Assembly (NCBI GenBank): GCA_035236585.1
Contig: CP141138.1
Location: 23,881,437 to 23,945,436, forward strand
Reading direction: 5' to 3'
Length of the DNA: 64,000 nt
From: Warburgia ugandensis
Lineage: Eukaryota; Streptophyta; Magnoliopsida; Canellales; Canellaceae
Shown here: positions 1 to 52,133 of the stretch, piece after piece
How positions within the stretch are numbered: position 1 is the stretch's first letter
Layout: each line of letters opens with the position of its first letter
Position numbers and translations under genes: made by a program
The notes under the pieces: model-generated
Database searches by the model: none
Seen by the model: the letters and a program-made list of their open reading frames with translations, nothing else
What the model was told of the DNA's origin: nothing

Positions 1-181
1 AGAGGGGGAAAATGGTTCCTAGCTCGTCGACCCACCATTGGCTTGGTTGAGCCTATGGTGGAGAAGGGAAGGGGGGTTTTGGGTACCCTCCTCACTCGCA
101 CCCAGATCAGGCCAAAATCGTCGCTGGAGGAAAAGAAGAGGTCAAGGAATATGGTGATTGGGTGGTGTCAAAGGAGAAATG
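1..181 (-). mobile_element. Gypsy-type LTR fragment, outer part
   Basis: This GC-richer stretch appears to be the left part of the same minus-strand LTR that resumes at 3744. The two parts are separated by an inserted element flanked by a perfect AAATG duplication. The left end lies outside the window. The assignment rests on the insertion geometry and similar composition more than on a direct alignment. Confidence 0.4.
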
Positions 182-3738: not shown

Positions 3739-3743
3739 AAATG

Positions 3744-7803: not shown

Positions 7804-8133
7804 CAACCTTTCTTTCTTCTTTCTTATTTTGTAATGTTTGAGTATGCTAATGAGCAAATGAGATGCTTTTGTATTACCTTTCCTTTCAAATTTTTAGAAG
7901 CATAAATAATAAATTAAGCAATTTGCAAGTTTAAATTTTGGTTTTAATCTGCAAACCTAGCCACCTTGTCTAGAAATATCATTTTTTTAGCTAAATTTAT
8001 AATTATAGAAATAGGAACTTTTAACTAAAGTTATGATTGTGTATTTCTTCCTTTTTAGTTCATTTGTCAAACTGTATGATTCCCACATTGTTTATTTTTA
8101 ATGTAAGTTTTTTTTTTTTTACATGAAAACAAT
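7804..8133. other. Short spacer, nothing recognised
   Basis: AT-rich sequence between the CACTA-like element and the first recognised ABCC pseudogene piece. It probably belonged to an intron or exon of that gene, but no match could be made by eye. Confidence 0.4.
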
Positions 8134-8330
8134 TTGACATGTTTAGGTGCTAATGGTCCTATTCTTTCAAGGTCTAAGGACATTAATGGCTATATTCTAA
8201 CTATTTCCTTGGGTGTTACATCCACCTTGAAAGTACTTTTCATTTTTCTTCTCTGGACCTTGATGAATATTCTTGTTATTTCTATTCTTTTTTTAATCAT
8301 GTTAGTTTCTTTTGTTATGTGTTTGAAGTT
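8134..8330 (+). pseudogene. ABCC pseudogene piece: early membrane-domain exon
   Basis: The frame at 8134 reads SKDINGYILTISLGVTS, matching the plant ABCC13-type stretch around LDGYILAISLGLTS in membrane domain 1. Further on, a shifted frame gives LDEYSCYFYS, resembling LDTQYSFRLS. The frame change shows decay. Earlier N-terminal exons were not found and may have been lost or lie outside the window. Confidence 0.7.
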
Positions 8331-9050
8331 GCCTAGGAATGGTAGTAATCTCCATTAAGAAGCATTCTCTAAAATGTTGTATTTTCTCCACATTTTTCTT
8401 GCAATAGTTCCATTTTGTTTTTGATATTAGCATCATTTTTCTTTGACATTCCTATGTCTAACTCCTTCGTGAAGGTTTTTTTTTTTCTTTATGTACATGG
8501 TCTAAAGACATGATATTTTCATTATTGTGGCAATTGTTCTATTTTAAGCTAAAAACTTCATGAGAATTTCATCTTAGATATGGTGTTTGAACATATTCAT
8601 TATCTACATGATGAGATAAATCAACAATTTGAATGTAATTATGTTTTATGTGGGTTTAACTTGCTAAGAACTTGGTAAGAAAAATATCCTAGTTAAGTAG
8701 TTTCAAGCTATTGATATTACTTTTAACTGTCATATTTGCCTCCTCATATCTTCTCTCTCATCATCTCTAGCCTTTGTTGGAGAGTTTGACAAATACCTTT
8801 TCCTTATCTTTCGCTTGTTGCTAGTTGAGAGATCCTTCAAAGATTTCTTTTAGTTTGACCCTTTCTATAGGTAGCATCATTTTCTCTCACTTTCTCCATG
8901 TAGCTAAGTCAAATGTGGATTTCCTAACTAAAGGAGTTTTTGGAGAGAGTTTAGTGGTCAATATTTTTGGTTGCCAATTTCAATTTTTCTATCATTTTGG
9001 CTGTCTCATCTTTAATTGTTTATGATGTCCAAGCCTTTGGATTGTCTTAG
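8331..9050. other. Probable pseudogene intron remnant
   Basis: AT-rich sequence with no further recognisable ABCC exon. Two short open frames (for example 8825-9025) show no family resemblance. Confidence 0.4.
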
Positions 9051-12000
9051 TGTGACAACTTGAGTTTTTAAAACACTTTTTCATAATTTTTTTTGAAAAG
9101 TGGGGCCCCAAGTTTGAAAATAGTTTCAAAAACAAAATTGTGAAAAATATTTTCAATTAAATTCAATTTTAAAACCCCGAGTGTCAACCATCAACTCACT
9201 ATTTAATTATTTATGATTTAATTTTAATATTTAAATTTTAAAAATAAATAAAATTTTCTATTTCCAAGTAAACCTTTTAGTAAACCTCTTAAAAACAAGT
9301 TTACTTCTTTAGGACTCATTCAGTCAACAGCCACAGTTCTTGCATCATTACAAATCAAGTCCAAATACCATAGATGTACATATACAATCCAAGTAGAATT
9401 AAAATATACCCTCAAATGAAGATGTCTCGATCAACTACTCATCTGATTCCTTATTAGTCCTATCTATCTCTCAATATGTAAGGCATTGCAAAAATAGTGC
9501 AATGCCTCAGCAAGCTATGCTTGGTAGAGGAATAAGATACACATCGAAATAATAATAATAAAAAACATTTCTTTTCACAATATATTAATCATTTCAATGC
9601 ATTAAAATATTTTGCATCATCAATTTGCATGATTAAATTTAAGATAATCACCAGAATTTGAATATTAAATTTTAAGCATTTCATGTAAATATCATGAATA
9701 AATCCAATAGCGAAATATCATGTTCAAATCATAATCAAAATCTCAAGTAAACTTTATGAATATATGCAAACATCATAAATAGATCTAGTGATACAAAGTC
9801 ATATGCAAATCATGATACAAATATTGAATAAAGCATCTAAATAATAGAGTTAAATAACATCAAACTCATAAAATAATAGTATATAATCATAATCATCCAA
9901 CCGTTGTTGGTCCACATACATGTAGTCAATACTGTGCTCACATATGCATCCTATCAACATTGGGTATACATAATGATTATGAACTCATACCAAGCATATC
10001 ATCATGTCACATCACAAGGCTTATCATCATGCTATATAGCCTACACCACAGTCCAAAATATACAAAGGACTACTATGTTGCAACGATAACCAACTCCTGC
10101 ATCTATCCATTGTCGCTCCTCGTCAATACTAGTATAGAAAACTAAATGTTCGTCATGCATTGGGGCAAATCATACATGTAGTTGTGGACTACCTATGATA
10201 CCATTTCCCACAAGATTTGTCCATCTTCGGGGCAGGTGTCTATCATCTCAAAAAGTCAGAGGGCAGGTGGCCAACCCTATATCCCTCCTAGCATAGTATC
10301 CCTAGGCCTATACTTGTGGAAAGAAAAATACACCAGGCCTACATGCCTGTATATAAAATACTAATAATATCAAGCTACACACTTGTATCATATCAAATCC
10401 ACAAAAAACACTATATCGTATACATAGTTGGTACCTTGTACCAAATCAAGCCTATCCAACTTCCACGTCAAATCACATGGAGATAAAACATGTCATACAC
10501 TATTAAACCATGCTTTTTAAATGAATGACATGGCTTTCAAAAGCATGGAAATATAATCATAATATAGCAATTCTCCGTATACAAAACTATTACCTGTTTA
10601 TTTCATAATTTATGCCATAAATATTGCATGTATAATGTTGCATAATAATTACATTTTATAAATGATTTATACAACTCAAATCACATGCAATTATCAAAAT
10701 CACATCATAATCATATAAAAAAATCATGCAATTTGTGAAAATTAGCATCTTAAATTGCTCCTACCTCAAATTTATCTATCTCAATCCTTAAAATGCCCAA
10801 TGATCTCAATGTTGTATCAATTAGCATATTTGCCAAGTCATATGTGAATGTAATGGCATTTTCCTATCACAAATCCCCATCTGTAACTCATTTCGTTTTT
10901 TATCATCTTTAAACATGATGATCTTGTCTTTACAGATCTTTGCTCATATGTGTATATCTTTATTTTGGTAATATCCTCAAATCTTGGTTGTTGGTTAAAG
11001 ATCATAGGTCCAAATCATTCATCTATTCTTAACTTTAGTTGATCTCAGCCTAGCACACAATCTATTTCATATTTCAATGTTTAATCTATTAATCCGATGG
11101 TTACATCAGATTCTGATCGGTCAAATCAATAGTTCTAGATCCTCATAACGTTCAAGTTCCTAAGCTAAGGAAATCATAATAATCTCATCATTAGGTTAGT
11201 TCAATTATCTATTTTAAAGTTTGATCTAACTTGATCATATGTATTTTCTAGGTTTCCTATAATTCAATTGCTTCTCACTAGCTCCTGTTCAGATCTAACT
11301 ATTGGATCCTACTCTAATTGGTCCGATCTATGTTCCTTGTCTCATCCTACAGTCCAAATTTATAAAATTTGGTCTACTAAGACAATCTAACCATTAGATC
11401 ATTTTATTTACCATGTTAGATCATTAATTTAGTCATTTATTAAATTTTAGATACTTATGAGCTGCAAATCTAGGCTATACAAGGACAAATCTTACTCAAT
11501 CCAAAGTTTTGAGGATGATCTTATAGATAGATCATTCTTAATGCCTACCTTAGGTATTTTAATTGTCAATATCTAGGACTAATACATCTTGATCCTACAT
11601 AGCATTAGTATTTTACATCATCTAATTGTATATTTAAAGGTAATTTATTGATCTGACAGTAAGATCTACCTCTAATCAATTAGATCTATGATTTTAGATT
11701 TCCTTGTCATAAAATGTTACTATTTTAGATCATTTGGATGATCTGACTATAAATCAATATCTATATTGTATTAGATCAACCAATTATTTAAATATTTGAA
11801 GTCTGATTGCCTTCGATCAAGTAGATCCAAGCCATCCAAAGTCTATGGTTCAAAACTAATATTCACAATGTATTCAAATCCTAAATTTTATCATTTTAAT
11901 AGGTTTGTCTCATCGAGATAATTCCAACGGATGTTTCTGATCTAAAATCTGGTTTATACAACTTCCTGAATTGAAAATCTAAGTTTCAGAGGAATTTCAA

Positions 12001-12064
12001 TGGTTTAGATTGAATTTGGATAAAAATAAGGAATAAAATGATGTCACTAGGACGCCTTGAGTCC

Positions 12065-12121
<57 letters not shown>

Positions 12122-12684
12122 GTAGTGTGAGCAATGACAATGGGGAGATGCAAGTAGGGGAGCTCACTTGTAGGAGTTCTACCCAAAGGTGAGCCATGCT
12201 AGGAGGATCCTTGGAGGAGCAGAGGTTGTCGAAGGGGTGTCTTAACAGTGGGGGCTCGTGGGGGTAGGGAGAAGGGGAAAGACAAAAGGACGAGAAGGGG
12301 GTGGGGTTACAACGTGGCAATAGGGCTATGCTGTCTGCCACCTACCGTACACATGGCCTGATAGGGTGGTGCCATTATCAAAACACATCTGCATTTTTCA
12401 CACATTTTGTTTTAAAATTAGATAAATATGCCCTATTTGAGAAAATTACCAAAATACCCTCAATTTCAATCATAACTTTTTTTATTCGAACTCTGATTTA
12501 GGCGCTCTTGTGTTGTTGAATTTGTTTTCTCAAGTAGATTACTAATATTAATGCTTTAACTCTTAAATTCATGTTTTCCATTTATTATCCTCTTAAAATT
12601 TAAAATCTTGTCATGAATTCTGCATTTTTCTTTTTCTAATTTATTCTATTTGCATAAAATGAATTAAAATTTTAGGGTGTTACA
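9051..12684 (-). mobile_element. Gypsy solo LTR (Del/Tekay-like), 3.6 kb
   Basis: Bounded by TGTGACAACTTGAG on the left and TTTAGGGTGTTACA on the right, with the perfect 5-bp duplication CTTAG at 9046-9050 and 12685-12689. The whole length aligns in reverse with the + strand LTR at 45698-49744, which carries a primer-binding site just downstream, so the orientation is minus. Only one LTR and no internal domain is present between the duplications: a classic solo LTR left by LTR-LTR recombination. It sits in the spacer of the ABCC pseudogene. Confidence 0.88.
12067..12118. repeat. (GA)26 microsatellite
   Basis: An uninterrupted 52-bp GA run inside the solo LTR. The Gypsy LTR copy at 45698-49744 has a CT run at the corresponding place, so the simple repeat is an ancestral feature of this LTR. 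Confidence 0.95.
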
Positions 12685-14786
12685 CTTAGTCACTATATGA
12701 ATTCTTCACCTTAATAAATTCCAATCATTAATAAAGAAAATATGAGCTAAAAACCTAAGCTCTCATGCTAGCTAATGCATTTTCGATGTTTTCCAAGTTT
12801 CAAATCCTAATAACAAAAAAATATATTGAGACTTTTGGTTAAATTGCTTATCTGAAAGAGTCCCAATAGAAGGAAATGCTCGTAAAATACCCAAGGAATA
12901 GATGCCAACCCTAGAGAGTTCATCACGTACAATGTATAGAAATTAGGTAACCCTCAAGAAATCATCTCATTTGGACTATCCAAGCCATTTATTTTGGGTT
13001 TGTGAAAAATTAAAAAGAAATGAATGGTCTTGATTTCTAATCCAAAGAAACATAGGCTAAAAGTTTTTAGTGGTCATGAAATTTGATTTTTAGCCTATCT
13101 AAGCCATTCCAAATATATTGAATGGCTTGATCTACAAAATATAATCACAATGATTAAGGGTAGCATCTACTTTTTAGGATGCTTAAGAGTGTCTACTCCT
13201 CCAGGGATCCTCCCAGCATGGCTCACCTCTGCTCCAAAGTTACTTGATTTCCATCTCTCTATGACCGATATAGTAGATTTTCTAAATCTATTTCCAGAGT
13301 TAGGGCATTTAGTAGATTCAAACAACAATAAATTCAAAAGAATATATATATATATATATAAGAAAACCCATGAAAAGGAGGGATTGAGATAACTTATTTG
13401 AAGAAACAATTAAGGAGGTTCTTAATCCAAATAAAAGCCTCTTGAAATTTGCAACCCTTACAAAGATCTATAGTTCTCTTAACAAACTAAAACTTAATAC
13501 ATGATTTTGATTATAGATGGTTTCTCTTTTATATCTCAAGAGTCATGACTCATGATGTCTAAATTGTTTGAAATGATAAAAAGATAGATTATGATTTATG
13601 CATAAACAAATTCATTTAAAGTGAATTCTACGATACTGCTAAAGCTTCACTATCCACGTTAACGATCTTGTGAAGGCATGGACTTGCGCATGCATCTATC
13701 TTCCATATTTGGAGAGAATAAAGACTCAATTTCAATTGCTCTAAGTAGTATGCCCTTTTGCCTGCTCAATCTTCTCACGGCAAAAATTAGTACCTGCATG
13801 ATGTGCCGAAGCCGTGGTTCTAATTTCTGATACATGCTTGGATATATGACAAGGATAACCTCAGGAATTTATAGGTTTCGGTTTTCCAATAAAATTTCTG
13901 AAATGTTCTTCTTGACCTTTATGTGCTTTAATCACCATGGTTATTGTCATTGCATTTTGTAGACCCTCTATCCAAACAAGTAATTTTTGAGGAAAGTTTA
14001 CTCTTTTGATGCTACAGTTCCTTTGTAGATACACAATGTAGCTTTCATCATCCCAGAATAAAACGTCGGTCAATTATCATGACACTTGTTTATCACAAGG
14101 TAAAGTCCATGCCCTTTCACCCATTTTAACAGTTTTCATGATATGTGGAGGTAATAGTTTCTTTCCTTCTTTATCCGGAGAAGGGCTTAAAGAAATATAC
14201 TTATCAACAAGTAGAATTCTTGACTAGATTGTTTTCAGTTTCCTCAGCTTTTCCAGTTATTGGGGAATGCTTCAGTAAATTTGATCTCATTATGATATAA
14301 TCAGACATCTTTATTACGATGTCTCAGGACTTGTTTATGATCTCCAATGGCAAAAAACTTATGTCAATCACACAACGGTTACAACATACTGAAGCTGTAT
14401 CTGATCGTTGAATATCAGAAATCACACATGCATAACTTTGAATATCAGAAGTTACATATGCATAGCTTTGGATTCCATGATCAAAAGTACAGATGATTGA
14501 ATTTATTGATTGTCCTACGGCATGGTTTTTTAATATCGGAGATCCACAGTGATACTATCAGATGGATAGTGTGACTTAACCAAAAGTGGAGCCGTCTATA
14601 ATAGTGTGCTTGCCTCTTTCTGATACAATGAGGTTGAGCTCTATTGAAGCACTCCTATTGTTTATATAAGTCCACATCATACCGGCAGCAGAAATATTTG
14701 TTATTTATCTGGACGTATTTTGCTTCTTGTAGCTTAAGCCTACTTATTTCCATTTTCTTGTGACATTGATGAAATGAATTGGGACT

Positions 14787-14897
14787 AGTAAACAGCATAG
14801 CCTTACCTTGCATTTTTGCAAGAGGCTGCTTTCATGCCTAAAACCTGTGACCTCTAGATCATAAGACAACAACTCTACTGTTGCGCCAAGGCTCCCC
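14787..14897 (-). mobile_element. Au-type SINE, truncated
   Basis: The reverse complement starts GGGGAGCCTTGGCGCAACAG and includes the tRNA-like B-box region and the GAGGCTGTTTCC/CTTGCAAAAATGCAAGGTAAGGCT blocks seen in the two SINEs of the TM9 gene. The 3' half with the CTGCCCTTTTT end is missing from this copy. SINEs of this family are tRNA-derived and moved by LINE enzymes. Confidence 0.8.
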
Positions 14898-14909
14898 TTC
14901 CACCAGTAA

Positions 14910-14946
14910 AAAAAAGGGCAGCCCCGGTGCACGAAGCTCCCCTTCC
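14910..14946 (-). mobile_element. 3' end fragment of a second Au-type SINE
   Basis: Reads AAAAAAAAGGGCAGCCCCGG followed by TGCACGAAGCTCCCC, the reverse complement of the GGAGCTTCGTGCACCGGGGCTGCCC-type tail of Au SINEs. It abuts the 5' end of the neighbouring truncated copy, so two copies, or a rearranged one, lie side by side. Confidence 0.65.
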
Positions 14947-15178
14947 GCCAGTATGCATAGTAAATAAACAACTGTGATAAAAGGATCTTATTTGTCTTTC
15001 TTCTTCCCATGGAGTCCACTATTTCTCTTAACATATAATCTGAATCAGCAGAAGTTAACATCTCTCAATCTGAGCTTTGAATAACCTATCACGCATAAAA
15101 GAATTGAATATATTGTTTCCTTGGATCTGATATTCCGAATATATTATATGCTGATTATTTCTTGGACTGTTCTGGTCC

Positions 15179-15290
15179 AGCTTGCCATTGCAGATTGGAG
15201 AAGCACTATTTCTTCAGTATACAAAGGTTAACTTCTCATTTGTTGCAGGTTGAAATAACCATCTTGCTTATACCAGGTACTTATCCGGCT
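15179..15290 (+). pseudogene. ABCC pseudogene piece: membrane-domain exon (QIGEALFLQYTKV)
   Basis: Codons from 15179 read SLPLQIGEALFLQYTKVNF without a stop, matching the SLPLQIGVALYLLYTQVKF segment of ABCC13-like proteins. A one-base shift after about 15247 is then needed to read VEITILLIP, which corresponds to LAITILLIP in the family. This is strong evidence of a real ancestral exon that has since decayed. Confidence 0.85.
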
Positions 15291-15457
15291 AAATGACATC
15301 AAAAGCAGGTTAAATTTATAACTGAATTAGTCGCATAGGACAGTATTGCCATGAATGAAAAGATGAACACAAATTGCCATGCATAAAATTTGTTGCGTGT
15401 TTGTTTATTAGATTTAGTATTGGAAGGGAAATGCTTCACTAATCAGTTATATTGCAG

Positions 15458-15524
15458 TTAATAAATGGATCTCTACTTTGATTGCACATGCAAAAGAGAA
15501 AATGATGAAACAAAAGGATGAGAG
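15458..15524 (+). pseudogene. ABCC pseudogene piece: NKWI...KMMKQKDER exon
   Basis: An acceptor (TTGCAG) precedes the exon and a donor (AG|GTAGAA) follows it. The 67-bp exon reads NKWISTLIAHAKEKMM then KQKDER, the conserved cytosolic segment between membrane helices of plant ABCC13-like proteins. The exon is open and both borders look functional, in contrast to the other damaged pieces. Confidence 0.85.
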
Positions 15525-16598
15525 GTAGAATTTCAGACCATTTATCTTCATAAAGCCGAGATATTATATATGCCCCTGTGATTGAAAATGCTGTTTGCAT
15601 GAATGAAATCAACATCTTATATGGAATAAATATGGCTCTGTTAGATAAAAGAGATCAATTACAGTTGGGAACTTGGATGCATTCAACTGAATGGAAAACT
15701 AGGGTCCATCTTCTAGAATAAAGGCATTTAAGAAGGTTCTCTTTTGAACTTAGTGTTATCAATGTTTACTCCAACTCTTTAAGATTGAGTTGATGGAGCA
15801 AACTTGATGCTACTACTGATATTGATCTAAGATCAATATTATCAAAGAGATTTTCCTTTATCGAATCCGTTGATGATTATAAATTAAATTATGTTAGCAC
15901 TGGCTGTGTGGACTTCTTTTAATTAGAGCAGAAAGGTACTCCATGTAGTTGATTCTTTTCTCATGGAAAATTTGAAATCCATCAAAAGTTTACTCCAGCA
16001 CATTCAGATAATGTGAGATCACTACTGTAATTATCAGTTACACTAGATGCATTTCAGCCTAGTTTGAAAAACAACGATAAAAAAGAGTCTAAACCTGAAT
16101 TCTTGAACTTGAGATAAGTAATTGTCAGACCTTCAAAAGAATTAAAAAATGTCTAAAGAAAAAGGAAAGAGAAGTTTATGATTAACACCCTGGAGATCAA
16201 GATCTGGTTAAAACCGTATCTTGCCCCCAAATTATGCAAAGAAGTCTACACTTTGCTGATGATGTCATCTCGAAAGAGTGCTATTTTGATGGATCTAATG
16301 GTGAGGCAGCAATATTTGATGACTGTTTATGTACAGGTTCAAATGATTGGAGCTCTCTGGATCAGAAAATTGATACCATATTGATATATAGAGAAAAAGG
16401 AGAAAGAGATACAAAATATCATTTCCTTCAGTTGGCCTGCGTGGTCTAACTCTAACCATGCATGAATCCTCATTTTGTTGACTTATGAGAGGCTTACAAA
16501 AGGCAATCCGATTATGAAAGTAATCTCAAATCATCTGGAAATGAAAAGAAGCTGATAATTACTGCCCGCCTGAACATGAACCAAAGCTTCTATTTGCA
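15525..16598. other. Pseudogene intron, no further exon recognised
   Basis: AT-rich sequence between two ABCC pieces. The frames at 16178-16449 (two overlapping, ~70 codons) do not resemble ABCC or any family I recognise. Confidence 0.4.
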
Positions 16599-16599
16599 G

Positions 16600-16645
16600 G
16601 CTGTTTGATTGAAACAAGAGCATTGGAAGTGAAAAAGCCAATCGG
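16600..16645 (+). pseudogene. ABCC pseudogene piece: LIETRALEVKK exon
   Basis: After TTCTATTTGCAG the sequence reads GCLIETRALEVKK, matching the GWLMKTRATEVTHL segment of ABCC13-type proteins. Similarity fades after about 16645. A second LEVK-like phrase lies at 16755-16761, at the border of the Copia insertion, so the element may have entered a duplicated or neighbouring exon. Confidence 0.7.
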
Positions 16646-16761
16646 CATGCAGTGGCTGATCCAGAATCTCTTATTGTTTGATCTAAACTTCTTAATTGTA
16701 TTGAAACTCCTTTCTGTGGTACTGTTCTAACCTGTATACTAATCATTACCAGACTTGGAAG

Positions 16762-16985
16762 TGAAGAAACGAATAGTAGTGTAAGATGTTATTCTTCTTT
16801 TCTTGTCTTTGTATTTACAATTGAGAGGTCTTATATAGATTTTACACAGTTTGCAATGAAGGTAAATGTCTACAATTATGCTACAGTCAATGGTGAAGTT
16901 CATGTGTGCTGATTTTGCCCCTTGAATGAGTACATAATGTGTGCTGAATTTCTTCCTTAGATGCAGCCATAGTTACATTCTATCA
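16762..16985 (-). repeat. Copia LTR, left copy (3' LTR)
   Basis: Runs from TGAAGAAACGAATAG to ACATTCTATCA. Same length as the right copy. I count roughly 20 differences in 224 positions by eye (about 91% identity), which points to insertion several million years ago at a grass-like substitution rate and longer at slower rates. Confidence 0.88.
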
Positions 16986-17715
16986 TGCACCTCCAAGATT
17001 GAGCTTCCATCAAGGATGCCAATCTTGGACCTATGAGCGGTGAACTGCTTGCAAGCAATTGATTTTGTGAGAGAATTTGCAAGTTGATCTGTAGTATGAA
17101 CATGAGACACTCGAAGTTGACGTTTAGTGACCTGATCGCAAACGAAGTAGAAATCAATTGCAATGTGTTTTATTCACGAGTGAAGTACTAGATTAGCTGA
17201 GAGATAGGTAGCATCAATGTTGTCGCAGTATATTGTTGGAGTAGTTGACGGTGTTATACCAAGTTACTCGTAATAAATTGGTAATCCAGTTTAGTTCTAC
17301 TACAATGGACGCCATAGCCCAGTATTCAACCTCGGTGGATGATCTTGTTACTAATTTCTATTTCTTTGATGACAACTGATAAGATTGTCTCCAATGAAGA
17401 CCACATATGTTGTAGTTGAAGTATGATCATCAGGGTTTCCGGCCCAATCCGCATTAGAAAAGGCAATAGTCATGGGTGAGTTTTTACGAATGAAGATGCC
17501 ATGATTGCGGGTTCCTTTAAGATAGCGAAGAACTCATTTGACTAATGTAGATTTGTGCATAAATTTAGATAGTTTGTTTACCAAAAAAGAGATGCTAGGC
17601 CTTATCAAGGATAGATACTGTATAGAACCAAGGACTTGGCGATAAATTGTGGCATTGGTAGAAGGACTACCATCACGAAGTTGAAGTTGTTCAGTAAAAG
17701 ATAGTGGAGTGGTTA

Positions 17716-19770
17716 TGTGGCTCCTCAGGTTTTATAAACCTTTTTCTGAAATTGACAATAGTAATAATAATATGCTTAAAATAAAATAGGGGGATTCCTA
17801 AAAGTAAAAACTCATAATTAATAATTTTTCACAGCATTGAAGGAAATACCAAAAAGAAAATTCTAGAGGGTCATCCACATCTCAAATACTATGAGCATTA
17901 CAAAAATTTAATTTCAATACTTTGAGCATGCTCAATTTAGAATCACGACAAATCATATACAATCGTGAAAAGACAATAATAGGAATAATATGTCTACAGT
18001 CCCCTAGGGTTCTATCCATGATCACTACATCATACCCATGTGTGCATGTAAATATACACTATACAGTCCAATGAGCCTAAACACAAGTCCAAGAGACATA
18101 CACTAATTGGTCTCTAATGTACAAAAAGGCAGATGGTCCTCGAGGTCCTCACTCAGTCAACACTGCTCCACCTACATAACCTTAGCGCTATTGCGCTCCA
18201 AACAAAGCAATGCCTCAGCAAACTATGCTTGTGTAGGTGATTCACATTCAAAAATGAATATGATAAAATCACATGGCACAAGGTATCAAGGTCATGGTAA
18301 ATCTCATAAGATGAATATGTACAAAACACACAAACATTAGATATCCATGACGAATAAAATAGGAGAATCATGATCCAAACAAATTGACATCCATCCTAAG
18401 CATCATGACATACAAAGCATGAGAAAAATACATGAGTATACACCCATCGAAATAATGAAAATATGTATCCATAGAATAACATGAATGTATATTAAAATCA
18501 AAATCAACAAAACATCATGCACAACCAAGCCCTATGAGTGTCTCAACTACACTCACGGCAACGTGGGCCTAACTCTTAGTACTTTTCGCTTTCACCCTTT
18601 CACCCACAATGGGGCACTCAGGCACTCACGAAAAGACGCATTCTAATTCCGCTTTCACCCTTTCCCCCACACGGGCACTTAGGCACTCACAGGAAGATGT
18701 GATCTAATCCCGCTTTCACCCTTTCACCTTTTCACCCACATGGGGTACTCAAGCACTCGCGGGGGAATGCATTCCATCACAACTTCAATCATTCCAACCT
18801 ACAAGCATAAAGACTACCATGTGTAACCGTCTCCATAAGATCTAGTCCAAGACAATGGTAGTGTAACATCAGTCATAGAGTAAAACATATAGCTAAATTA
18901 TGTAAATCAAGATATCGTAACATCAACCATGTATGATAAAGAAGTTCTCATGTAACATGAAAATGTGCAAAACTCATGCTTCAAAATTCCCAAATAATAT
19001 GTCATGATTAAGGAAATCATGAAAATCATAGAATGCAATCACCTACCTCGACAAATACGATACTCTAGTCAAGCGTGTAAGCAACGTCACGTTGTGTGCT
19101 CTAATGTATCTGTCACAGCATAAGTCATCTATTACTTAGTATTCTCATATCTGAAAATAAACAAATTCAAGTAACAATTCCCTTGATCTGATTAACCCTT
19201 TATTGGGTCAATCCTGTACTAGATGTAAGTTTTCCTAACATTTAGACAAACATTCATGGTCTTTAATTATCAATATATGTCAATATTCACTTAATTTATG
19301 TCCCTTAATCAATGAAGGGTCAGTCCCTAACATCTCGTGAAGTTTGGAGACGATCTGACTATTGGGTCGCTCATAACACTCATAATTAACATCTGATCAT
19401 CAGTTCTAACTATTCTTATCATGATCTCTCTAATATCAGTGTTTATTTAGTGATTTATGCATGTCTCTATGATTATACCTTGATCTAACGGTTAGATCAC
19501 TCTTTGTTCAGCCAATCCTAAGGTACCTGATCAAATGAATTGTCAAGATTACTTTTCTTGACAATCACATGTGATCTACTTTGCTAATTCCCTAGGTCAT
19601 CTTATATTTGGTGTATATAATCAAGTTTTAAGGCCTGATCATCCATCAGAGGTGTCAGGTCCTTATTACTCTACTATCCGATCAGAAAGTTTAGGTTTTT
19701 TGGTCAATTTCAATCTAGATTCTTCCATTTGTGCCATATCCTAGCAATTTCAATGCTTTAAAACCCATCT
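17716..19770 (-). mobile_element. Gypsy-type LTR fragment inside the Copia element
   Basis: The left edge TGTGGCTCCTCAGG with TTTTATAA resembles the TGTGACGACCCAGG edge of the LTR at 55016. The phrase GCCTCAGCAAACTATGCTTG near 18210 recurs in all full LTRs here (9507, 49268 in reverse, 55470). Copia coding sequence resumes near 19775. The right LTR terminus is not recognisable, so the copy is incomplete. Confidence 0.65.
18588..18780. repeat. Three ~62-bp tandem units (GCTTTCACCCTTTC...)
   Basis: Units start at 18588, 18651 and 18712 and share GCTTTCACCCTTTC, CCCACA.GGG.ACT and AGGCACTCAC blocks. They lie in the interior of the LTR fragment. Confidence 0.8.
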
Positions 19771-20446
19771 GTGTCGGGTGTGGAACATTTAGCATCCATC
19801 ATATTAGTCTTGATCAGAAGATCTGAAATGTACTTACTTTGAGGGAGAAATAGGCTAGTTGGAGTCCATGTAGCTTCAACATCTAAGAAATAGTGCAAGT
19901 TGTCCAGTTCTTTTTAAGGAGAATCTATTGGCAATTTGGGTTATGAAGGCTTGTGTAGCAGAAGTCTCGTTTCCTATGATAATGATGTCGTTGATGTAGA
20001 CAAGAAGGTAGGTGATATTTCCATTTTCTATTATGATAAAGAGAGAGTTGTTTAAATGTGAGTTCTAAAAATTGTTGGATAATAGAAATGTTTGTAGTTC
20101 ATGATATCACACTCATGGTCATTGTAGGAGGCCATAAATGGCCTTCTTCAATTTGTACACATAATTGGAAACTTGAGGATGAGTAAAACCTGTAGGCTAT
20201 TGCATAAAAACACTGTCCGAGAGAACCTTGTATGAAGGAATTGTTGATGTCTAGTTGTCAAAGATGTCATCTTGAGGTGATGGCAAGAGTTAAAACTAAT
20301 TGAATTGTTGCTTGCTTTACAATTGGGTCAAAATTTTGAATGAAGTCCACACATGGTCCCTGGTGAAATCCATTTGCAAGACGTGCTTTGTAATGGGCAA
20401 ATGTTCCATCTTGGTTTCGTTTAACCCAAAAGATCCACTTATAGCC

Positions 20447-23258
20447 TATGATGACCCAGGTTTTCACATGCATTTTTAAATGTAAAACTAATTCCTAATG
20501 TGGTGTCAGACCTTATTTTAAAACACTTTTATAAAAAATAATGCAGTGCAACAAAAAAATCTTTTATTCTAAATTCATTTTGAAAACCACGAGTGTCATT
20601 CACTTCCAAGAGAACAAAATAATTTTTAAAACTAAGACGAAAATATATACATCCCAAACCCAGCCTGTCACAGCTCACAGTCCAACTATAATATACATGT
20701 CCAAAGGATAAGTCATATACTTACATTCATACTTGTCTTTATCTTCACTCACTTGATCGAAGCACTACATTACCTGATACTTCTTCTAATCCTACTCGAG
20801 CTTATCTATAAAATAATATATTTGGTTGAGTATTTAACATACTCTGTAGGTGGTCTGATACTACTAATTTGAAAACAAGGCATGCAACATGAATAATTTC
20901 AAGAGAGGTTTTTTAGGTAATAAAATCATGCAATTTATGTAAACATGGGTATTCATTCATAAATCATTCTCACATTTTATATATAGAATTTCCAACAAAA
21001 TTAATAAATCAATAATATAAAGACCACGAAATTCTGAAAGTAGTAATTGATCAAACCAGATGCTAGAATCTCAACCTTATGGTAGATATCATGCACTTGG
21101 GATCTCGGTGAACACATCAGCCAACTGGTTACGTGTACTCATCTAAGACCATCTCAATGCACCATCTATGGTGGTACAAAACAAAAGTCGTAGGGTCTGC
21201 TATGCTCATGACGAGACTTATATGAACTTGTGTGTGTTTGGTATTTAGAGACTAACCCACCACAGCTTCCACAGCGACTATAGATATATTTTGGAAAAGG
21301 GTGCCATGAACACCTCCAGTGGTCGTCCCATTACCACAATAGTCAAGAAAAGGGACAAGTGCCACTTTGGGTAATGATACCTACCACCTTTGGTGGTTAG
21401 AGGCCGAGAGCCTAATCTTGTACACAAACAACCTCTTAGCATAGTGCCCCACCAGGTTCATTAGCCTGAAAATAAATATATGTGTGTTCCAATTTTAAGC
21501 ATTCAACACATGCTAAGTCATGCAATTTATGCAATCTTGTTTCAAACACATGCAAATTATACATTTATGAAATTCCAAAATAAAGATAAGCTATGAAAGA
21601 TATAAGTAGTAGCATTATCAATCAAGATCATAAATCATTTATCATTTCAAAAACACAAAAATAATTTTAGATAATTTGTTTAAGTTTGGAATTCAGTTAA
21701 AGACTTAGTAGCATTAGACTATCTACCTTAAGGATGTCACTTAGTTTTGCTTTTTCTTCAATTCGAATCATGAATCTCCTTCAGAGTCTTTGCAAAATCT
21801 TGGGTATAATTTAAGGATGAGAATCTAACTATTATTTCTCAATCGCTATTGATCATTGGTCAGATTCATAGATTAACTGCCTAGATCATCGATCTAGACT
21901 CCAATCCTATCTATTAATATTCAGATTTATGACTAAAGGATTAATGTCCTTAATTCATAGTTGATCTAGGTATATATATCTTCTAAGTTATCCAATGGAT
22001 CACTTCTTGAGGTCTAATAATCTTTAGTCTTATAGATATATGAGAATTTCATAGTTTTTAGGTAATGATTAGTTAAAAATGTTCTTTGATCCTAAATTTA
22101 TTATATAATTAGGTTTATGTCGTCAATATGAATCCATTGGACCTTTCTGATCATAAATCAAACTTGTATAGCCATCGAAATTAGAGATTTTGTGTTTCAA
22201 ATCAGTTTAACTATCCAGATTGAAATTCTAGATCTAGAACACAACAAAATGGTTACAAGGTTGCATCTCAGTTCTCAAGACGCAAGTGCCTCCCAATCAA
22301 ACTGCGATAGCCCTGCATGTGCAGAGGTGCACTGGGATGTGCATCTCCAAGATGCGTTCCAGAATGTGTCTTGGACCTAGAGATCGGAGGTTGGTGCAAC
22401 GATCCAATCTAAACTGTCGGATCACCCGATTCAGGATCAATGTCTAAGATGAGTTAAAATTTGACTGTTTTTACATATCTAGGGGTTTTGGGATCCCACA
22501 AATTCATCAAAAGGCTCATATCTCCCATCTGAGTCGTCCTTCAATGGGTTCTATCTTAGATCCACCCGTTCTGGTTTCACCGGTGATTTGCAAGCTAGTG
22601 AGACCAGATCTTGCTAGAATGTGAGGGGAAAACGCCGAAAAAAAGAGAGATGATGGATAGAGAGAGGGAGATGTTACCTAGTAGCCGGAGAAGGTCTAGG
22701 CATTTTTTCAATGGTGCATATTTGAATATGGTTGCCTGAATCCTCAAATTGCTAGTGACGATGTAGGAAATGGGATGCCAGAGGGAGGGGAGAAGAAGAG
22801 GGAGAGGGAAGTCTGAGTGTGATGGGGGAGGAGTGGAGTATTTAAGGTTGGTGAAAGCGATGTCGTAGCTGACCTTGGTCCCACGAAAGGAGGCTAGAGG
22901 AGGAGCGGCATGAGTGCTTGCCACTTTGTGTGCAACCAAAGGAGATAGAGGGGGGTGTCATTATCAAAACGACCCTTGCTAATTCTACTTATTTTTTGTA
23001 TTTCTTTATTATTTACACATGTATCAAAATGCTCTTATACTTAAAAGTTCCATAACTTTCTCATCTAAACTCCGTTTTTAGTGTTCTTTGTATTGTTGGA
23101 TTCTATTTTTCAAGTAGAATCTAATTATGAGGGTATTTTCAACAAATTTGGCTTCTATAAATTCTTACTTCTAAAATTCAAAAATTTTAAAACATTCATC
23201 CTTCTATTCCATTCAATTTTCCAAAATAAAATAGGATTTAAAAATTCGAGTAGTTACA
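20447..23258 (-). mobile_element. Gypsy solo LTR (2.8 kb) nested in the Copia element
   Basis: The left edge TATGATGACCCAGG and right edge GAGTAGTTACA correspond to the two ends of the Del/Tekay-like LTRs in this window. The Copia reverse-transcriptase sequence stops at one edge and continues at the other, which proves insertion into the Copia element. Flanks TAGCC and CAACC are a decayed candidate target duplication (3/5). No internal domain is present. Confidence 0.8.
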
Positions 23259-23512
23259 CAACCAATAATGTTTTTTGTGTGATCAAGTGGAATAAGATTC
23301 CATGTTTTATTATGAATGAGTGCATCATATTCTTCACACATGGCTTTACTCCAGTGTGGATATTTGAATGCTTGAGATTCACTGGTTGGTTCATAGGAGG
23401 TGGACTCTATTTGAAGGATGGTATTGAGGTTAAGCATTTTGCCAGGTTTGAAAATGTTATTTGTTGAACAAGTGACAATTTTTTGAACTTGGTAGGTGAT
23501 GGTGATGAAGAG

Positions 23513-23516
<4 letters not shown>

Positions 23517-23605
<89 letters not shown>
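23517..23605. repeat. (GA)44 microsatellite
   Basis: An 89-bp uninterrupted GA run inside the Copia internal region, the longest simple repeat in the window. The antisense reading gives an artificial Leu-Ser polypeptide. Confidence 0.95.
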
Positions 23606-23607
<2 letters not shown>

Positions 23608-24868
23608 GAAGTACATGCATATGAGGGATCTTCAGAGTAGTCTTCTTTATTGCAGTAGGAGTAGGGGATGTTTGGTTGGATTGATCATAGTCTTTGTTAA
23701 TGCTGATAGTGGTTGCTCACTTAGAAAATTAGATGTGTGAAGAGAGTGATCATGGTTAGATATTTGGGGAGTAGATTGGGGAATGACTTGTGAGGGGATT
23801 ATTAAATGAGAAGAGTGCCTGAGCTGTGGAGAGGTTTGTGTGTTAGTTGAAGGAATGCAAAAAGAGTGAGAGGTAGCAAAACTATTGGTTTTATTTGAGG
23901 AGGGAAATTTTTAATCAAATTTAATTATTGATGAAGATATAATAGTTAACTTATTCCATTCATGATGTGTGTTTTTATTGACAAGTGAGTCATTTTGGAA
24001 AAGATGTTTAAATGGAAAAATTGACTCAATAAATTAAACATGTATTAATAAAATGACTTTTTGTGATTGAGAATCTTAACATTTGAATGCATGATGTTGT
24101 ATAGAGTATCTAAGAAAAATACACGGGTGTGAGCAAGGTTTTAGTTTGTGATTTGAGTATGGTCATAACCAAGGAAAGCACATGCATCTGAAGACCTTTA
24201 ATTTTTGAAATTTTGGATTTTTTGGTGAAATATTTTTTCAAAGGGTGATTGATAGTGTAATATAAGAGTGACCATTTGATTCATTAGATAAGTGATAGTT
24301 TGAAAAGTAGCTATCCAAAATCAAAGGGTTAAAGAGGCTTGATGAAGTAAGGTGAGTCTTATTTCAACAATATGTCTATGTTTTTGTTCTGCTGATCCAA
24401 TATGTTGAGGAGTATATGGAAGTGATTGTAGATGCTAAATACCAAGATGGAGAAAGGATAAGCTAAAAATGAAGAAGTCAGAAGGCGCTCTTCTTTTTTG
24501 GGTTGATTAGATATAGGGTTTTGATTGGCTAATGAAGAAGGGGAGATGAAAATGGGGATTGATTCACACTAAAAGTGAAAGGAAAGAGGTGCGAGTGAGA
24601 TGTTTGAAGAAAGTTCGTAGAAGAAAACATGAGAGAGAATTGGTTTTCCGTGGTTGGTCCAACACTATGCAGTTGCCAATGATGACAAAGATGAGAGATG
24701 CGTCCTTTTTCTCTGTTATTAGAAGAAACTAGTAAGGGGAGGGAATTCTAGATTGGAGAGACTAAGGACTAGGGAGAAGGTTGAGAGCATATTTGTTTGA
24801 TAGTATTCTGAATTACACATGGTGAAGGGAAAATCGAGAGAGGAAGAACACTGAAGGCTTTGATACCA

Positions 24869-25092
24869 TGAAGAAACTAATAATAGTGTAAGATGTTATT
24901 CTTCTTTTCTTGTCTTTGTATTTACAATTGAGAGGTCTTATATATATTTTATAAGGTTTGCAATGAAGGTAAATCTCTACAATTATGCTACAGTCAATTG
25001 CGATGTTCATGTGTGCTGATTTTGCTCCTTGAATGAGTATGTAAAGTGTGCTAAATTTCTTCCCTAAATACAACCATAGTTACGTTCTATCA
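24869..25092 (-). repeat. Copia LTR, right copy (5' LTR)
   Basis: Runs from TGAAGAAACTAATAA to ACGTTCTATCA, 224 bp like its partner at 16762-16985. The primer-binding site lies immediately to its left (around 24854-24868). Confidence 0.88.
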
Positions 25093-25155
25093 TGAAGTAT
25101 TTGGGGCATCCACTAAATGCCACAATAGTACGACAATCTAACATAGTTATTTTAC

Positions 25156-25430
25156 ATGTATCATTGTGTTTCTTGTTGGGTAAATAGTAGTGTGCCCTGT
25201 TTGCATGTGTTCACTTATGTTGCCTTACTCAATATTCTCATCTCTCCACTAAATTCATTCACATGGTGGATTAATGGATCGATTGATGTAATTCTCAAAA
25301 AGCATTTTTTTACTTTCAACTTCTTATTTGTCTTGTGCATTCCAGGCCATAATATCTACCAAACAATTGAGCAAATTGCTCTCCTGTCCGAAGCTCAGTT
25401 ATCAAATGCTGCAGCCATTTGATGACTCGT
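25156..25430 (+). pseudogene. ABCC pseudogene piece: end of membrane domain 1
   Basis: Reads VFTYVALLNILISPLNSF then WWINGSID, a close match to the family's VFTCVALFNTLISPLNSF..WVINGLID at the end of membrane domain 1. A following segment (25367-25393) in another frame reads LSKLLSCPK, like the RRLSRFLSCPE linker, after a short intron with an acceptor near 25347. Confidence 0.85.
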
Positions 25431-25492
25431 TATATATAGCTGATTTTTCATGCTCATATTTCAATGGTCAGCCTAAGGTGTCCCTCAAACAT

Positions 25493-25620
25493 ATGGCAAT
25501 TGTCTTCCAAGATACATGTTCTGCTTGGTCAAACTGGGATGAGATAGGGAGAACAGAGTCTTGAACCACTCTACAATTGACCTTCACAAGGGGATGCTTG
25601 TTACAGCAATTGGAGAGGCC
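25493..25620 (+). pseudogene. ABCC pseudogene piece: start of nucleotide-binding domain 1
   Basis: The frame from 25493 reads MAIVFQDTCSAWSNWDEI, matching AVVFQDASCTWSSSNEIE at the beginning of NBD1 (the aromatic W of the A-loop). A shift at about 25561 leads to LNHSTIDLHKGMLVTAIGEA, corresponding to LNHVTLHLPKGSLVAVIGE just before Walker A. The frame break is one of the clearest signs that the gene is dead. Confidence 0.85.
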
Positions 25621-25837
25621 ATTACTATGCTTTTAGAAGTCTTAAGAGTTTCTTGTTATCTAGTTTCTACTTTTGCAATGACGATAGCAAACTGCATTTA
25701 TTGGAATGTATTGTTTATAAAGGGCGTTTGATTCCATTGAACATGAAAAAAAAGTTAGTAAAATGACACATGAAGGATGTTTCTTATGGTAAGGATTGAA
25801 AAAATGGCCTTATCTTATGATTCATGTGAAAGTATGA

Positions 25838-27050
25838 TTTGTAACAACTGGGGGTCTTAGAACAACTATATTGTCCCCTTTGGCTGCCCATACAGCCTCA
25901 TAGTTTTGTTCCTCCCCTATGGTAAAATGCCTCGTTGCAAAGAGAGTTCCTCGAACTCTTATAAATTGCCTAGTTTCCTCTCCTTAAGTGATATGGGACT
26001 AACTCTTAGTACCTCACTCGTCTTAGGATTCATCCCTCAAGGCTTCACATCTTCTTTCCTTAGAGAACACAAGTCTCTGCATGATAGACATGACCAAGTG
26101 CCCACATGCGGCTAGCTACCACACCACGAGGGGAATTGGCTCTGATACTATTTATAGCAATCAGGGGTCCCACAACAATGATATTGTCTACTTTGGCTGC
26201 CTATACAGCCTCATGGTTCTGTTCTTCCCTTATGGGAAAAAGGCCTCGTTTGTGGGTATTAAAGTGCACAGCGGATGATATTGTCCTTTTTAAGCCCAGC
26301 CCTCAAGATTTTGTTCCCTCTAGGCCCCTCCCCCTACTTGGTTCCCTGAGCCATCTCCCATCTATAGGCTCCCTAGACCGTCTCCCTTTTCAAGCTTCTC
26401 CCTTAGGACACCTTGTGCTAGGAGAGTTTTCAAACTCTTATAAACTGCCCAATCCCTCTCCCTAGGCGACGTGGGACTAACTTTCAATACCTCACCCGTC
26501 TTGGGATTTATTTCTCAGGGCTTCACATTAATTTGTAACAGCTGGGGTCTCATAGCAACGACATTGTCCACTTTAGCTACCCATACAGCCTCATGGTCTT
26601 ATTCCTCCCTTACGAGAAAAGGCCTCGTTGTTAGAAGAGTTCCCTGAACTCTTATAAATTGCCCAGTTCCCTCTCCCCAGGTGATGTGGGATTAACTCTC
26701 AGTACTTCACCCGTCCTAGGATTTATCCCTCAAGGCTTCACATCTTCCTCTCTTAGGAACACTAATCTTTGCATGATAGCCACGACTAGGCGCTCGCGCG
26801 CAACTAGCCACCACACCATGAGGGAACTAGCTTTGGTAGCATTTGTAATAGTCGGGGGTCTCACATCAACAATATTGTCAGCTTTGGCTGCCCATACAAC
26901 TCACGGTTTTATTTCTCTCTTATGGGAAAAGGCCTCGTTGTTAGGAGAGTTCCCGAACTCTTATAAATTGCTCAGTTCCCTCTCCCCAAGTGATGTGGGA
27001 CTAATTCTCAGTATCTCACCAATCTTGGGATTCATCCCTCAAGGCTTCAC
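25838..27050. repeat. Tandem array of four ~310-380-bp units
   Basis: Units begin near 25838, 26151, 26532 and 26842 (the last is shorter). Each has TTTGTAACA.C..GGGGTC, ATATTGTC..CTTTGGCTGCC, ATACAGCCTCATGG and CTCAAGGCTTCACA blocks. The array lies between the NBD1 start and the Walker A exon of the ABCC pseudogene, so it probably expanded in an intron. The frames across it (for example 26659-27075) follow the repeat and are not genes. Confidence 0.8.
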
Positions 27051-28055
27051 AATATGTGATGGATCACGGCGGTAACTTTGATTCAGTATGAATATTGAGA
27101 ATGTTCAATCACTAAAGTTTGGCATATTGGCATTCATTTGCTCCTTTTCATCTAGGAATGTTGGAAGATGTGAACATAACCCTTAAGTGGTGTCATGATG
27201 ATCTAAGACATTATAGAATGATGATTATAGATGGCTTAAGGAATGTCATCAAATGCTACTCATGAATGCTTACAACTAAAAACCGTCCAATCATTTTAGG
27301 CTCTTCAAGTGGGTCACTGATCTCGCACTCTCTTCCTGGCCACCCCTTACATGGCAACCAAGTTGGTCTGTAGCCTGTTATTATTTCTGTTCTTGAAATT
27401 TGTTTTGTACAGGCTTGTTACCCAGGAAAGGATTTGATATATATTCCAGAGTAGAAAAATATGTTTCCATTGTAATTTTTTAGAGGACAACCAAATCAAT
27501 TTGCTAGGCCAAACTCCATTCCTTGCACCAAATTTATAATATCCTATTCCAATTTTTTAACATACATCCTGATAGAAATAACTTAGTCCTAGCAAGGAAT
27601 TAGCTTCAATTTGAAGAACCAAGATATTAACTTGATGTTTTATATGTGGCTTGCAATTATTTTTACTCAAGTTATGTTCTTATTTTTGTGACATTTGATT
27701 CACCGAAACTTGGTGCGTGGGATATAGTGCATACTAAAAGAGGGAGATTAGACTAATTGTATTGACTCTAGAAGATTGAGCTCTGTCCCTTCGTGAAATG
27801 GTGTAATTGTGTATATCCTAACCCTATTAAATTGTTAGCATACTCAAATAATGACAACCCATATCTCTCTCCTTAGAACTATGTATATTTAGGACAATGA
27901 TGCATTTTAGCTACTGAACAACCAACTCTTCGTAATAATACTACCAACAAACTCCGGAAATTAAAGTTACCTAATATAATAATCTAATTTCCCATGTCAA
28001 GGATCTGGTTTCTGCTTCCTCTCATTCTCAGTAACTGACAGTTGCTTATGATCAG
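27051..28055. other. Pseudogene intron sequence, nothing recognised
   Basis: Sequence between the tandem array and the Walker A exon, with no repeat or coding match seen. Confidence 0.4.
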
Positions 28056-28157
28056 GTTGGTTCTGGCAAGTCATCCTTGTTAAACTCAACACTAGGAGAG
28101 ATGGGGATCATTCACGGATCAATGTGTTTAAATGGATTAAAAGCGTATGTCTCACAG
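28056..28157 (+). pseudogene. ABCC pseudogene piece: intact Walker A exon
   Basis: A 34-codon exon bordered by ATCAG| and |GTTATC reads VGSGKSSLLNSTLGEMG, followed by an IIHGSM segment and AYVSQ (the Q-loop). Walker A (GSGKSS) is complete and there is no stop. Family members have VGSGKSSLLNSILGEM here. Its good preservation beside ruined exons suggests decay is not ancient. Confidence 0.92.
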
Positions 28158-28245
28158 GTTATCTCCTGTTCCCGGATAGACAGACTAATCTAATCTTCTC
28201 TCTTGCCAGTTTCATCTGATGTTAGTTGTTTTTATGAGCCTGTAG

Positions 28246-28311
28246 ATTCCATGGATCTTGTTGGGCACTGTACATGATCATATCTTGTTTGGAAAGGACT
28301 GACAGAAAAAG
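28246..28311 (+). pseudogene. ABCC pseudogene piece: IPWILLGTV...ILFGKD exon
   Basis: After a TGTAG acceptor it reads IPWILLGTVHDHILFGKD, matching VPWILSGTVRENILFGK. A stop codon follows GKD before the probable donor at 28312, where family members continue with a tyrosine-containing segment. Confidence 0.88.
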
Positions 28312-28540
28312 GTTTGCATGAGATAATTTGATAATAATTGCTGATTTCTTTTAGGTTCCATACTACTAAAACACAACTTCCCTCCATTTTCATTGATATT
28401 TCAATGTAAAATGCATTTTATGAAGGATAAATGTTTGGTGGCCGACGACGTATACCAGCTCTTTAGAAAATTCCTGAGGGAACCGGATCTTTTATAACAT
28501 TGGAATTTTAGTTTAGAGCAGATATGCATAGGTACTAAAG

Positions 28541-28652
28541 GCCCGTGCACTTGATTTTGATATCTCTCTGATGGTCGGAGGGATTTAGCATATATTGGCG
28601 AGGAAGGACTCAACTTGTCAGGCGGACAAAGTGCAAGACTTGCCCTGGCACG
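28541..28652 (+). pseudogene. ABCC pseudogene piece: ABC signature exon (LSGGQ)
   Basis: Reads ARALDFDISLMVGG, then after a frame change AYIGEEGLNLSGGQSARLALA, ending at a donor CG|GTAAAA. This is the ABC signature region (family: ACALDVDISLMVGGD..CIG..GLNLSGGQRARLALAR). The LSGGQ motif itself is intact. Confidence 0.9.
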
Positions 28653-28737
28653 GTAAAATTTTCTCATTTGCAGATGTAGCCGGATCCATTTTCAAAATCT
28701 ATTTATGATCTTTATCATCAAGATAAACAATTTGCAG

Positions 28738-28885
28738 GGCACTCTATCATGGCTCCGATATATCCTTGCTTGATGATGGCTTAGCGCAATTGATGCACAA
28801 AAGTGGCTCGCTGGCTTTTACATAATGCTGTTCTAGGTCCTCTAATTAACTCGAGGACTCCATACTATGTACTCATAATCTTCAG
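28738..28885 (+). pseudogene. ABCC pseudogene piece: Walker B / H-loop exon
   Basis: Starts after TTTGCAG and reads ALYHGSDISLLDDGLAQL, the Walker B region (family: AVYHGSDVYLLDDVLSAVD). After a shift it gives VARWLLHNAVLGPL, and in another frame CTHNLQ, the H-loop, just before a CAG|GTCATT donor. It shows several frame changes. No later exon, including NBD2, was recognised downstream. Confidence 0.88.
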
Positions 28886-31408: not shown

Positions 31409-31416
31409 TATAAATA
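31409..31416 (+). promoter_or_regulatory. TATA box of the TM9 gene
   Basis: TATAAATA lies 117 bp before the start codon, followed by an A-rich then GA/CT-rich leader typical of plant 5' UTRs. Transcription would be expected to start near 31440, giving a leader of about 90 bases. This is inferred from position and consensus only. Confidence 0.65.
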
Positions 31417-31532
31417 GAAAAAAAAAGGAAAAAGGAAAAACCAGGGTGAGAGAGAGAGAGCAGAAAGGATCTCCATTTCTCCGTTCCTCCCCTCTCCTTT
31501 CTTAGATCTGTCCGCCTTGTGCCCTACCTCTA

Positions 31533-31646
31533 ATGGCGATTCGTCCATCTTTCACGTTTCATTTCTGGATCACCGTGCTTCTCCTTCTCTCCATCCGTGG
31601 AAACTGTTTCTATCTCCCTGGCGTCGCTCCGGAGGATTTTGAAAAG
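31533..31646 (+). CDS. TM9 exon 1 (signal peptide, start codon)
   Basis: 38 codons, starting at the first ATG after the CT-rich leader (context TCTAATGGC) and ending AAG|GTTAGT in phase 0. Residues 8-24 are hydrophobic ([10 protein letters not shown]), then [11 protein letters not shown] marks the likely cleavage zone. Confidence 0.95.
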
Positions 31647-45697: not shown

Positions 45698-49744
<4,047 letters not shown>

Positions 49745-52125: not shown

Positions 52126-52133
52126 TATAAAAA
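52126..52133 (+). promoter_or_regulatory. TATA box of the solo LTR
   Basis: TATAAAAA after a GC-rich stretch and before a CT-rich leader (CCTCTTCCTCGATC), the usual promoter position within an LTR. Whether it is active is unknown. Confidence 0.55.

Follow-up and report, generated by a model that had tools for sequence, protein, structure and literature searches.

A decayed ABCC transporter gene in Warburgia ugandensis and its intact partner on another contig

A 21-kb stretch of the Warburgia ugandensis genome carries the remains of a transporter gene of the ABCC family whose intact counterpart stands elsewhere in the same assembly. It lies in a window of 64,000 nucleotides, the whole piece of DNA analyzed here (contig CP141138.1, hereafter C13, positions 23881437-23945436; the assembly has 14 contigs totaling 1.12 Gb), and coordinates without a contig name refer to this window. 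The locus is very probably the decayed twin of an AtABCC13-like gene on contig C2, which we take to be of the AtABCC13 type from a provisional reference protein sequence. A chromosome segment appears to have been duplicated, most likely with the whole genome, after which the C13 copy decayed. This reading is carried by the disabled state of the window copy, an intact paralogue, a collinear TMN/EMP70 gene next to both copies, equal synonymous divergence (dS) of the two gene pairs, and a near-neutral rate of change in the window copy.

Structure of the window copy

Exon-by-exon alignment to the C2 gene recovers 13 exon remnants of a single ABCC transporter gene, collinear and on the + strand between 8170 and 28885. 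A first-pass annotation, made from the letters of the window alone, had proposed a pseudogene of one ABCC gene with at least ten ordered exon pieces at 8134-28885. Both the single origin and the count hold, as does the 3' limit; the start does not, for 8134-8169 corresponds to C2 intron and the first exon begins at ~8170. For the same region, a nine-residue gap apparently common to the window exon at 8140 and the C2 gene was dropped, being intron ahead of the acceptor.

DNA alignment of the window to the one C2 gene yields blocks in order over 8073-29089, introns included, with E values down to 0. The ABCC identity of the locus is thus independent, at the DNA level, of the provisional AtABCC13-like protein used as a tblastn query. 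That query gives collinear + strand matches over 8140-28891 (best E 4e-12, compared with 0.32 for a reversed-query control), weak pieces among them (for example, E 0.55 at 14019-14099). ABCC homology continues to ~29118, and hand-listed alignment blocks assign 7.0 of the 21.0 kb to ABCC DNA. When joined, the pieces of the first nucleotide-binding domain (NBD1), which include both Walker A and LSGGQ, match ABCC chains in the PDB, namely ABCC2 (E 8e-15), ABCC5, and ABCC4.

The remnants begin in the first transmembrane domain (TMD1). Exon 1 (8170-8231; C2:15365630-15365570, 88.5% identical) has a changed acceptor AG and a 1-bp insertion at its 3' end, and exon 2 (14018-14099; C2:15363749-15363662, 85.4%), also of TMD1, keeps both splice sites and carries a 6-bp in-frame deletion. 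Exon 3 is a stub (14126-14148) of 23 of the 117 bp present at C2:15362545-15362429, its acceptor having been removed as well by a deletion of 1,183 bp. Exon 4, again TMD1 (15180-15276; C2:15361385-15361287, 86.6%), has lost 2 bp, and exon 5 (NKWISTLIAHAKEKMMKQKDE; 15458-15524; C2:15361067-15361001, 89.6%) is open with intact splice sites. In exon 6 (16585-16644; C2:15359802-15359684), 59 of 119 bp remain, with a 1-bp insertion and a donor changed from GT to GC; its 5' half and acceptor disappeared with the loss of 190 bp between two AGCTT direct repeats. Exon 7, read against C2:15359580-15359464, survives as its first 9 bp (16753-16761), ahead of a long terminal repeat (LTR) element, and its last 30 bp (25098-25127); 78 bp of the exon are deleted, with the 3-bp repeat TGG at the junction. 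Exon 8 (TMD1; 25207-25287; C2:15359379-15359299, 90.1%) is free of indels, its acceptor AG having become AT. Exon 9, from the linker between TMD1 and NBD1 (25346-25617; C2:15359201-15358932, 85.9%), shows a 1-bp deletion, a 3-bp insertion, and a donor GT changed to GC.

The remaining pieces belong to NBD1. Exon 10 (28056-28157; C2:15350073-15349972, 89.2%) encodes Walker A (VGSGKSS) in an open frame between intact splice sites, and exon 11 (28246-28311; C2:15349883-15349816, 86.4%) has lost 2 bp and contains a stop at 28300. Exon 12 (28522-28652; C2:15349605-15349474, 90.1%) contains LSGGQ; 1 bp is missing ahead of the motif, and reading in the C2 frame meets a stop at 28529. Exon 13, which follows LSGGQ and covers the Walker B region (28737-28885; C2:15349373-15349225, 89.1%), has three frame-breaking indels. 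The perfect borders noticed earlier at 15458-15524 and 28056-28157 are therefore real, AG and GT being kept without indel or in-frame stop; of the two motifs described as intact, Walker A is indeed in an open exon, and LSGGQ is present in an exon that is not. In a protein test with shuffled queries, support is weak for the stub of exon 3, whose score was attained by 2 of 200 shuffles, and for exon 6 (15 of 200); both are placed by DNA alignment.

Taken across the 13 exons, frame-breaking indels affect seven (1, 4, 6, 9, 11, 12, 13) and changed splice dinucleotides four (1, 6, 8, 9). Two of these changes are GT to GC, and a GC donor in place of GT can still function. The acceptor is deleted in two exons (3 and 6), the larger deletions of 1,183, 190, and 78 bp overlap three, two in-frame stops occur in 388 codons of the C2 frame, and exons 5 and 10 are undamaged. 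Illegitimate recombination would be the mechanism of the deletions; the TT at the junction of the 1,183-bp deletion and the TGG at that of the 78-bp deletion are within the range of chance.

A full-size ABCC protein has two TMDs and two NBDs, and the window holds parts of TMD1 and NBD1, with no significant match to TMD2 or NBD2. Searches for the second half in 28892-39000 and for the N-terminal part in 1-8140 score no better than shuffled queries. The 5' exons were found neither in the window nor in the 20 kb upstream of it, and none of the eight matches from a genome search with these exons lies on C13 (12 candidates scored). The damage thus comprises frame-breaking indels, altered splice sites, and deletions, and the 5' exons and entire second half are gone from the DNA examined. 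The copy now encodes no complete domain and no transporter, and the locus probably has no residual function. Its disabling lesions and loss of constraint, together with the survival of introns that match those of the parent gene, identify it as an unprocessed (duplicated) pseudogene.

The living paralogue

A genome search with the NBD1 pieces returns the window and a split-exon match on C2. At the DNA level, the NBD1 segment (28006-29089) matches exactly two places in the genome of 1.12 Gb: its own position and C2:15348995-15350119 (83%). The gene at this second place lies on the - strand at C2:~15292753-15390663, as delimited by spliced alignment, genome search, and tblastn end pieces, and it spans ~98 kb because its introns are very long (two within the aligned part measure 8.9 and 9.4 kb). 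The spliced alignment covers residues 314-1419 of the provisional reference in 26 exons with GT-AG introns and no stop or frameshift; its 27 rows include one 60-bp "intron" that is an artefact. Further 5' exons come from the genome search (C2:15386194 and 15383829), and end pieces from tblastn (~15390663 and ~15292753). The joined exons encode two ABC_membrane and two ABC_tran stretches. A search of the genome for such a paralogue had been suggested with the first-pass annotation; because the C2 gene is intact, the window holds a lost duplicate, and the gene has not been lost from the lineage.

The C2 protein is 68.9% identical to the provisional AtABCC13-type sequence over 1,105 residues, and 66% in the half that is absent from the window. 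Since it matches where the window has no DNA, the provisional sequence was not shaped by the window in that half. When the C2 protein is compared with the PDB, ABCC3 and ABCC2 chains outscore the two entries called "ABC transporter C family member" (2 and 13), as would fit a separate branch.

Shared neighbors and a common clock

Homology between the two places extends beyond the ABCC gene. Three + strand blocks at 29189-30395 match C2:15292048-15290694, which flanks the C2 gene on its 3' side (70-81% identity), and blocks at 31365-40712 (+), comprising a TMN/EMP70 gene and the sequence preceding it, are collinear with C2:15289775-15281001. The last-exon open reading frame (ORF) of the TMN gene (39390-40637) is intact, matches Pfam EMP70 at E 2e-161, and is 96.2% identical in amino acids to the C2 last exon, bearing out, for this long last exon, the earlier observation that the pseudogene lies upstream of, and on the same strand as, an intact gene. 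TMN follows ABCC in the same orientation at both places, the retained collinear neighbor characteristic of a fractionated homoeologue. The window copy retains this 3' flank but lacks its own second half, which was therefore lost after the duplication.

The ABCC pair has a dS of 0.191 (388 codons, bootstrap 0.13-0.25) and the TMN pair one of 0.203 (395 codons, bootstrap 0.152-0.257), with a ratio of nonsynonymous to synonymous divergence (omega) of 0.089 for the latter. Given this equality in dS, one duplication probably made both pairs. Noncoding sequence of window and C2 differs by a Jukes-Cantor (JC) distance of 0.187 over 5,551 sites. Divergence of the ABCC pair is near-equal at the three codon positions (0.120/0.111/0.129), and the TMN differences are distributed 10/5/49. 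At the 86 ABCC amino-acid differences, the provisional outgroup sides with C2 in 51, with the window in 7, and with neither in 25. Omega by branch is 1.02 for the window (bootstrap 0.72-1.54) and 0.14 for C2 (0.05-0.30), on the assumption of equal synonymous rates in both lines and with the provisional outgroup. The window copy looks neutral over most or all of the time since duplication and the C2 copy constrained, for which the simplest history is inactivation of the former at or soon after the duplication.

Insertions in the window copy

Transposons had been given the leading part in the first-pass annotation, which described a gene dissected by them after loss of function. Only one of the mapped insertions (to none of which a strand is assigned) is clearly exonic. 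This LTR-flanked element occupies 16762-25092 within exon 7, with LTRs at 16762-16985 and 24869-25092, other LTR-like sequence nested inside, and a target repeat of GGAAG/TGAAG (4 of 5 positions). Its LTRs differ by a Kimura two-parameter (K80) distance of 0.095 (20 of 226 sites), about half of the 0.187 between the duplicates, and the element therefore arrived after the duplication. Reverse-strand fragments at 16973-17731 resemble copia reverse transcriptase and RNase H by eye, unconfirmed by Pfam, which found neither family in any of four fragments of the element (one irrelevant sub-threshold match); PHROGs likewise gave nothing. The other mapped insertions are intronic. One, at 9051-12687, is LTR-like, is flanked by the 5-bp repeat CTTAG (read directly), lacks a C2 counterpart, and has relatives at 46998-49744; it may be a solo LTR, since no partner repeat was noticed. 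Another, at 25837-27054, consists of related units with 79-85% identity between copies, in which Tandem Repeats Finder detects no array.

Long, disrupted introns are no mark of a dead gene here because the intact C2 copy spans ~98 kb with introns up to 9.4 kb, and transposon load is not what distinguishes the dead copy from the living one. Of the earlier sequence of events, the arrival of at least one insertion after constraint was lost survives; that transposons were chiefly what took the gene apart is not supported. As a whole, that first reading is partly supported, its observation of a pseudogene being confirmed.

Origin and alternative explanations

Two ABCC-TMN blocks, now on C2 and C13, would have arisen when a chromosome segment was doubled, most likely together with the whole genome. 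Both TMN copies would have stayed under constraint, and of the ABCC pair only the copy on C2. Its C13 twin, released at or shortly after the duplication, would then have accumulated indels that break the frame, mutations at splice sites, and deletions (in some cases between short direct repeats), would have lost its 5' exons and everything beyond the first nucleotide-binding domain, and would have received insertions, one of them clearly exonic.

That the duplication was of the whole genome and not segmental is suggested by what was kept at both places. Several points weigh against the reading as a whole. Synteny is supported only by ABCC, TMN, and the intervening sequence; the flank blocks diverge unevenly (JC 0.137-0.257); and the outgroup in the rate analysis is a provisional sequence. 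At the left border, homology stops at ~8050, where C2 seems to have an insertion. Upstream of the window by ~15 kb, a kinase ORF of 755 amino acids on the - strand (C13:~23863920-23866186; residues 1-289 Pkinase, E 2e-30) lacks a counterpart at E <= 1 within C2:15281001-15408000, a region with an 8-kb gap. This missing partner would also be expected had ABCC and TMN moved by segmental duplication to another chromosome, the ABCC copy being dead on arrival without its 5' part. Such an origin, less probable but not negligible, would likewise account for the near-neutral rate over the entire history of the window copy and for the 5' exons, which were not found in the window, in the 20 kb upstream, or among the genome matches on C13. 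Against it, the segment extends over two or more genes and the intergenic sequence, TMN is constrained at both places, and the 3' flank was carried along, so that the missing 3' half was lost only afterward.

Transposons are not likely to have caused the death of the gene. An element does sit inside exon 7, and ABCC DNA makes up only a third of the 21-kb stretch, yet the LTR distance (from 226 bp only) is about half the divergence of a copy that looks neutral for most or all of its history, and the remaining mapped insertions are in introns such as C2 also has at great length. Undated insertions may have come earlier. It is highly improbable that a working gene or half-transporter has been misread as a pseudogene: the open exons 5 and 10 with both splice sites, and exon 2 with both splice sites and an in-frame deletion, would suit one, but seven of the 13 exons are frame-broken, the 5' exons and second half were not found, and omega is ~1. 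Assembly of pieces from several ABCC genes, by chance or by transposons, has next to no probability, since a single gene matches both the pieces and their introns in order, the exons at 85-91% identity, and nothing was found in its support.

Other features of the window

By eye, 7791-7803 (AATTTTAGTAGTG) resembles a CACTA-type transposon end, with diverged subterminal-like repeats at ~6121-7725. This end raised the idea that a CACTA-like element had captured the gene, which was rejected; the window contains no partner end, and homology ends 250 bp from the end resembling a terminal inverted repeat. Also rejected was 55013-58239 as further ABCC gene sequence. It aligns to a C2-gene intron in the expected order but is a repeat, its first 869 bp, LTR-like, having at least 41 genome matches (40 of 9,655 candidates scored), most of them 91-92% identical. 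Related short repeats occur at 14796-14940, 36475-36655, and 38915-39091, and several more in the C2 gene; the strand opposite 14796-14940 looks by eye like a tRNA-derived short interspersed element, and ARAGORN found no tRNA gene. A 143-amino-acid ORF at 32634-33065 resembles ORFs at C2:15299372-15300007 and upstream on C13, appears by eye to be like a long interspersed element, and belongs to no Pfam family. A GC-rich patch at 52000-54000 (0.475, against 0.24-0.41 in other 2-kb bins) has overlapping ORFs on both strands.

Comparison with known systems

The C2 protein is like AtABCC13/MRP11-type ABCC transporters, as represented by the provisional reference, and the window copy codes for no complete domain of one. 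Names are a trap in this family: wheat "ABCC13" is AtMRP5-like (PMC5301939). Literature searches on plant ABCC13 loss or pseudogenes showed nothing on this locus, in a partial coverage that is no proof of absence. Another comparison is wheat TaABCC18, a truncated ABCC gene termed a pseudogene, as is the truncated window copy; the passage on TaABCC18 gives neither origin nor synteny (PMC4486771).

The locus looks like an event of a familiar sort, the ordinary loss of one gene of a duplicated pair, half finished and still readable. In maize after tetraploidy (PMC2893956), one duplicate is lost via short deletions, inferred to occur between direct repeats of 3-24 bp. The window copy resembles such fractionated homoeologues in its decay by deletions, here with AGCTT (190 bp) and TGG (78 bp), beside a retained partner and neighbors; unlike the maize case, much of its middle is readable, introns included, and it carries frame-breaking point indels in addition. 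According to PMC7775554, excision dominates gene loss after whole-genome duplication in plants, relics being rare or extremely transient. Both ends of the window copy fit this description, being untraceable in the DNA examined, but ~7 kb of gene sequence persists. The locus combines the two, excised ends with a persisting relic between them.

It offers a worked case in which every step is visible, with a living partner, a TMN clock, a neutral-intron yardstick, and an LTR pair as an internal date, and it bears on whether plant duplicates undergo quick excision (PMC7775554) or slower decay with short deletions (PMC2893956). We suggest tentatively, as something rather less than probable, that an early-dead plant duplicate can persist with its introns, and with exons 85-91% identical to those of its living partner, until a neutral divergence of ~0.19, with excision at the ends only. 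If that is true, duplicate loss in large, transposon-rich plant genomes would be a matter of slow decay and piecemeal deletion at short repeats, not of quick, clean excision.

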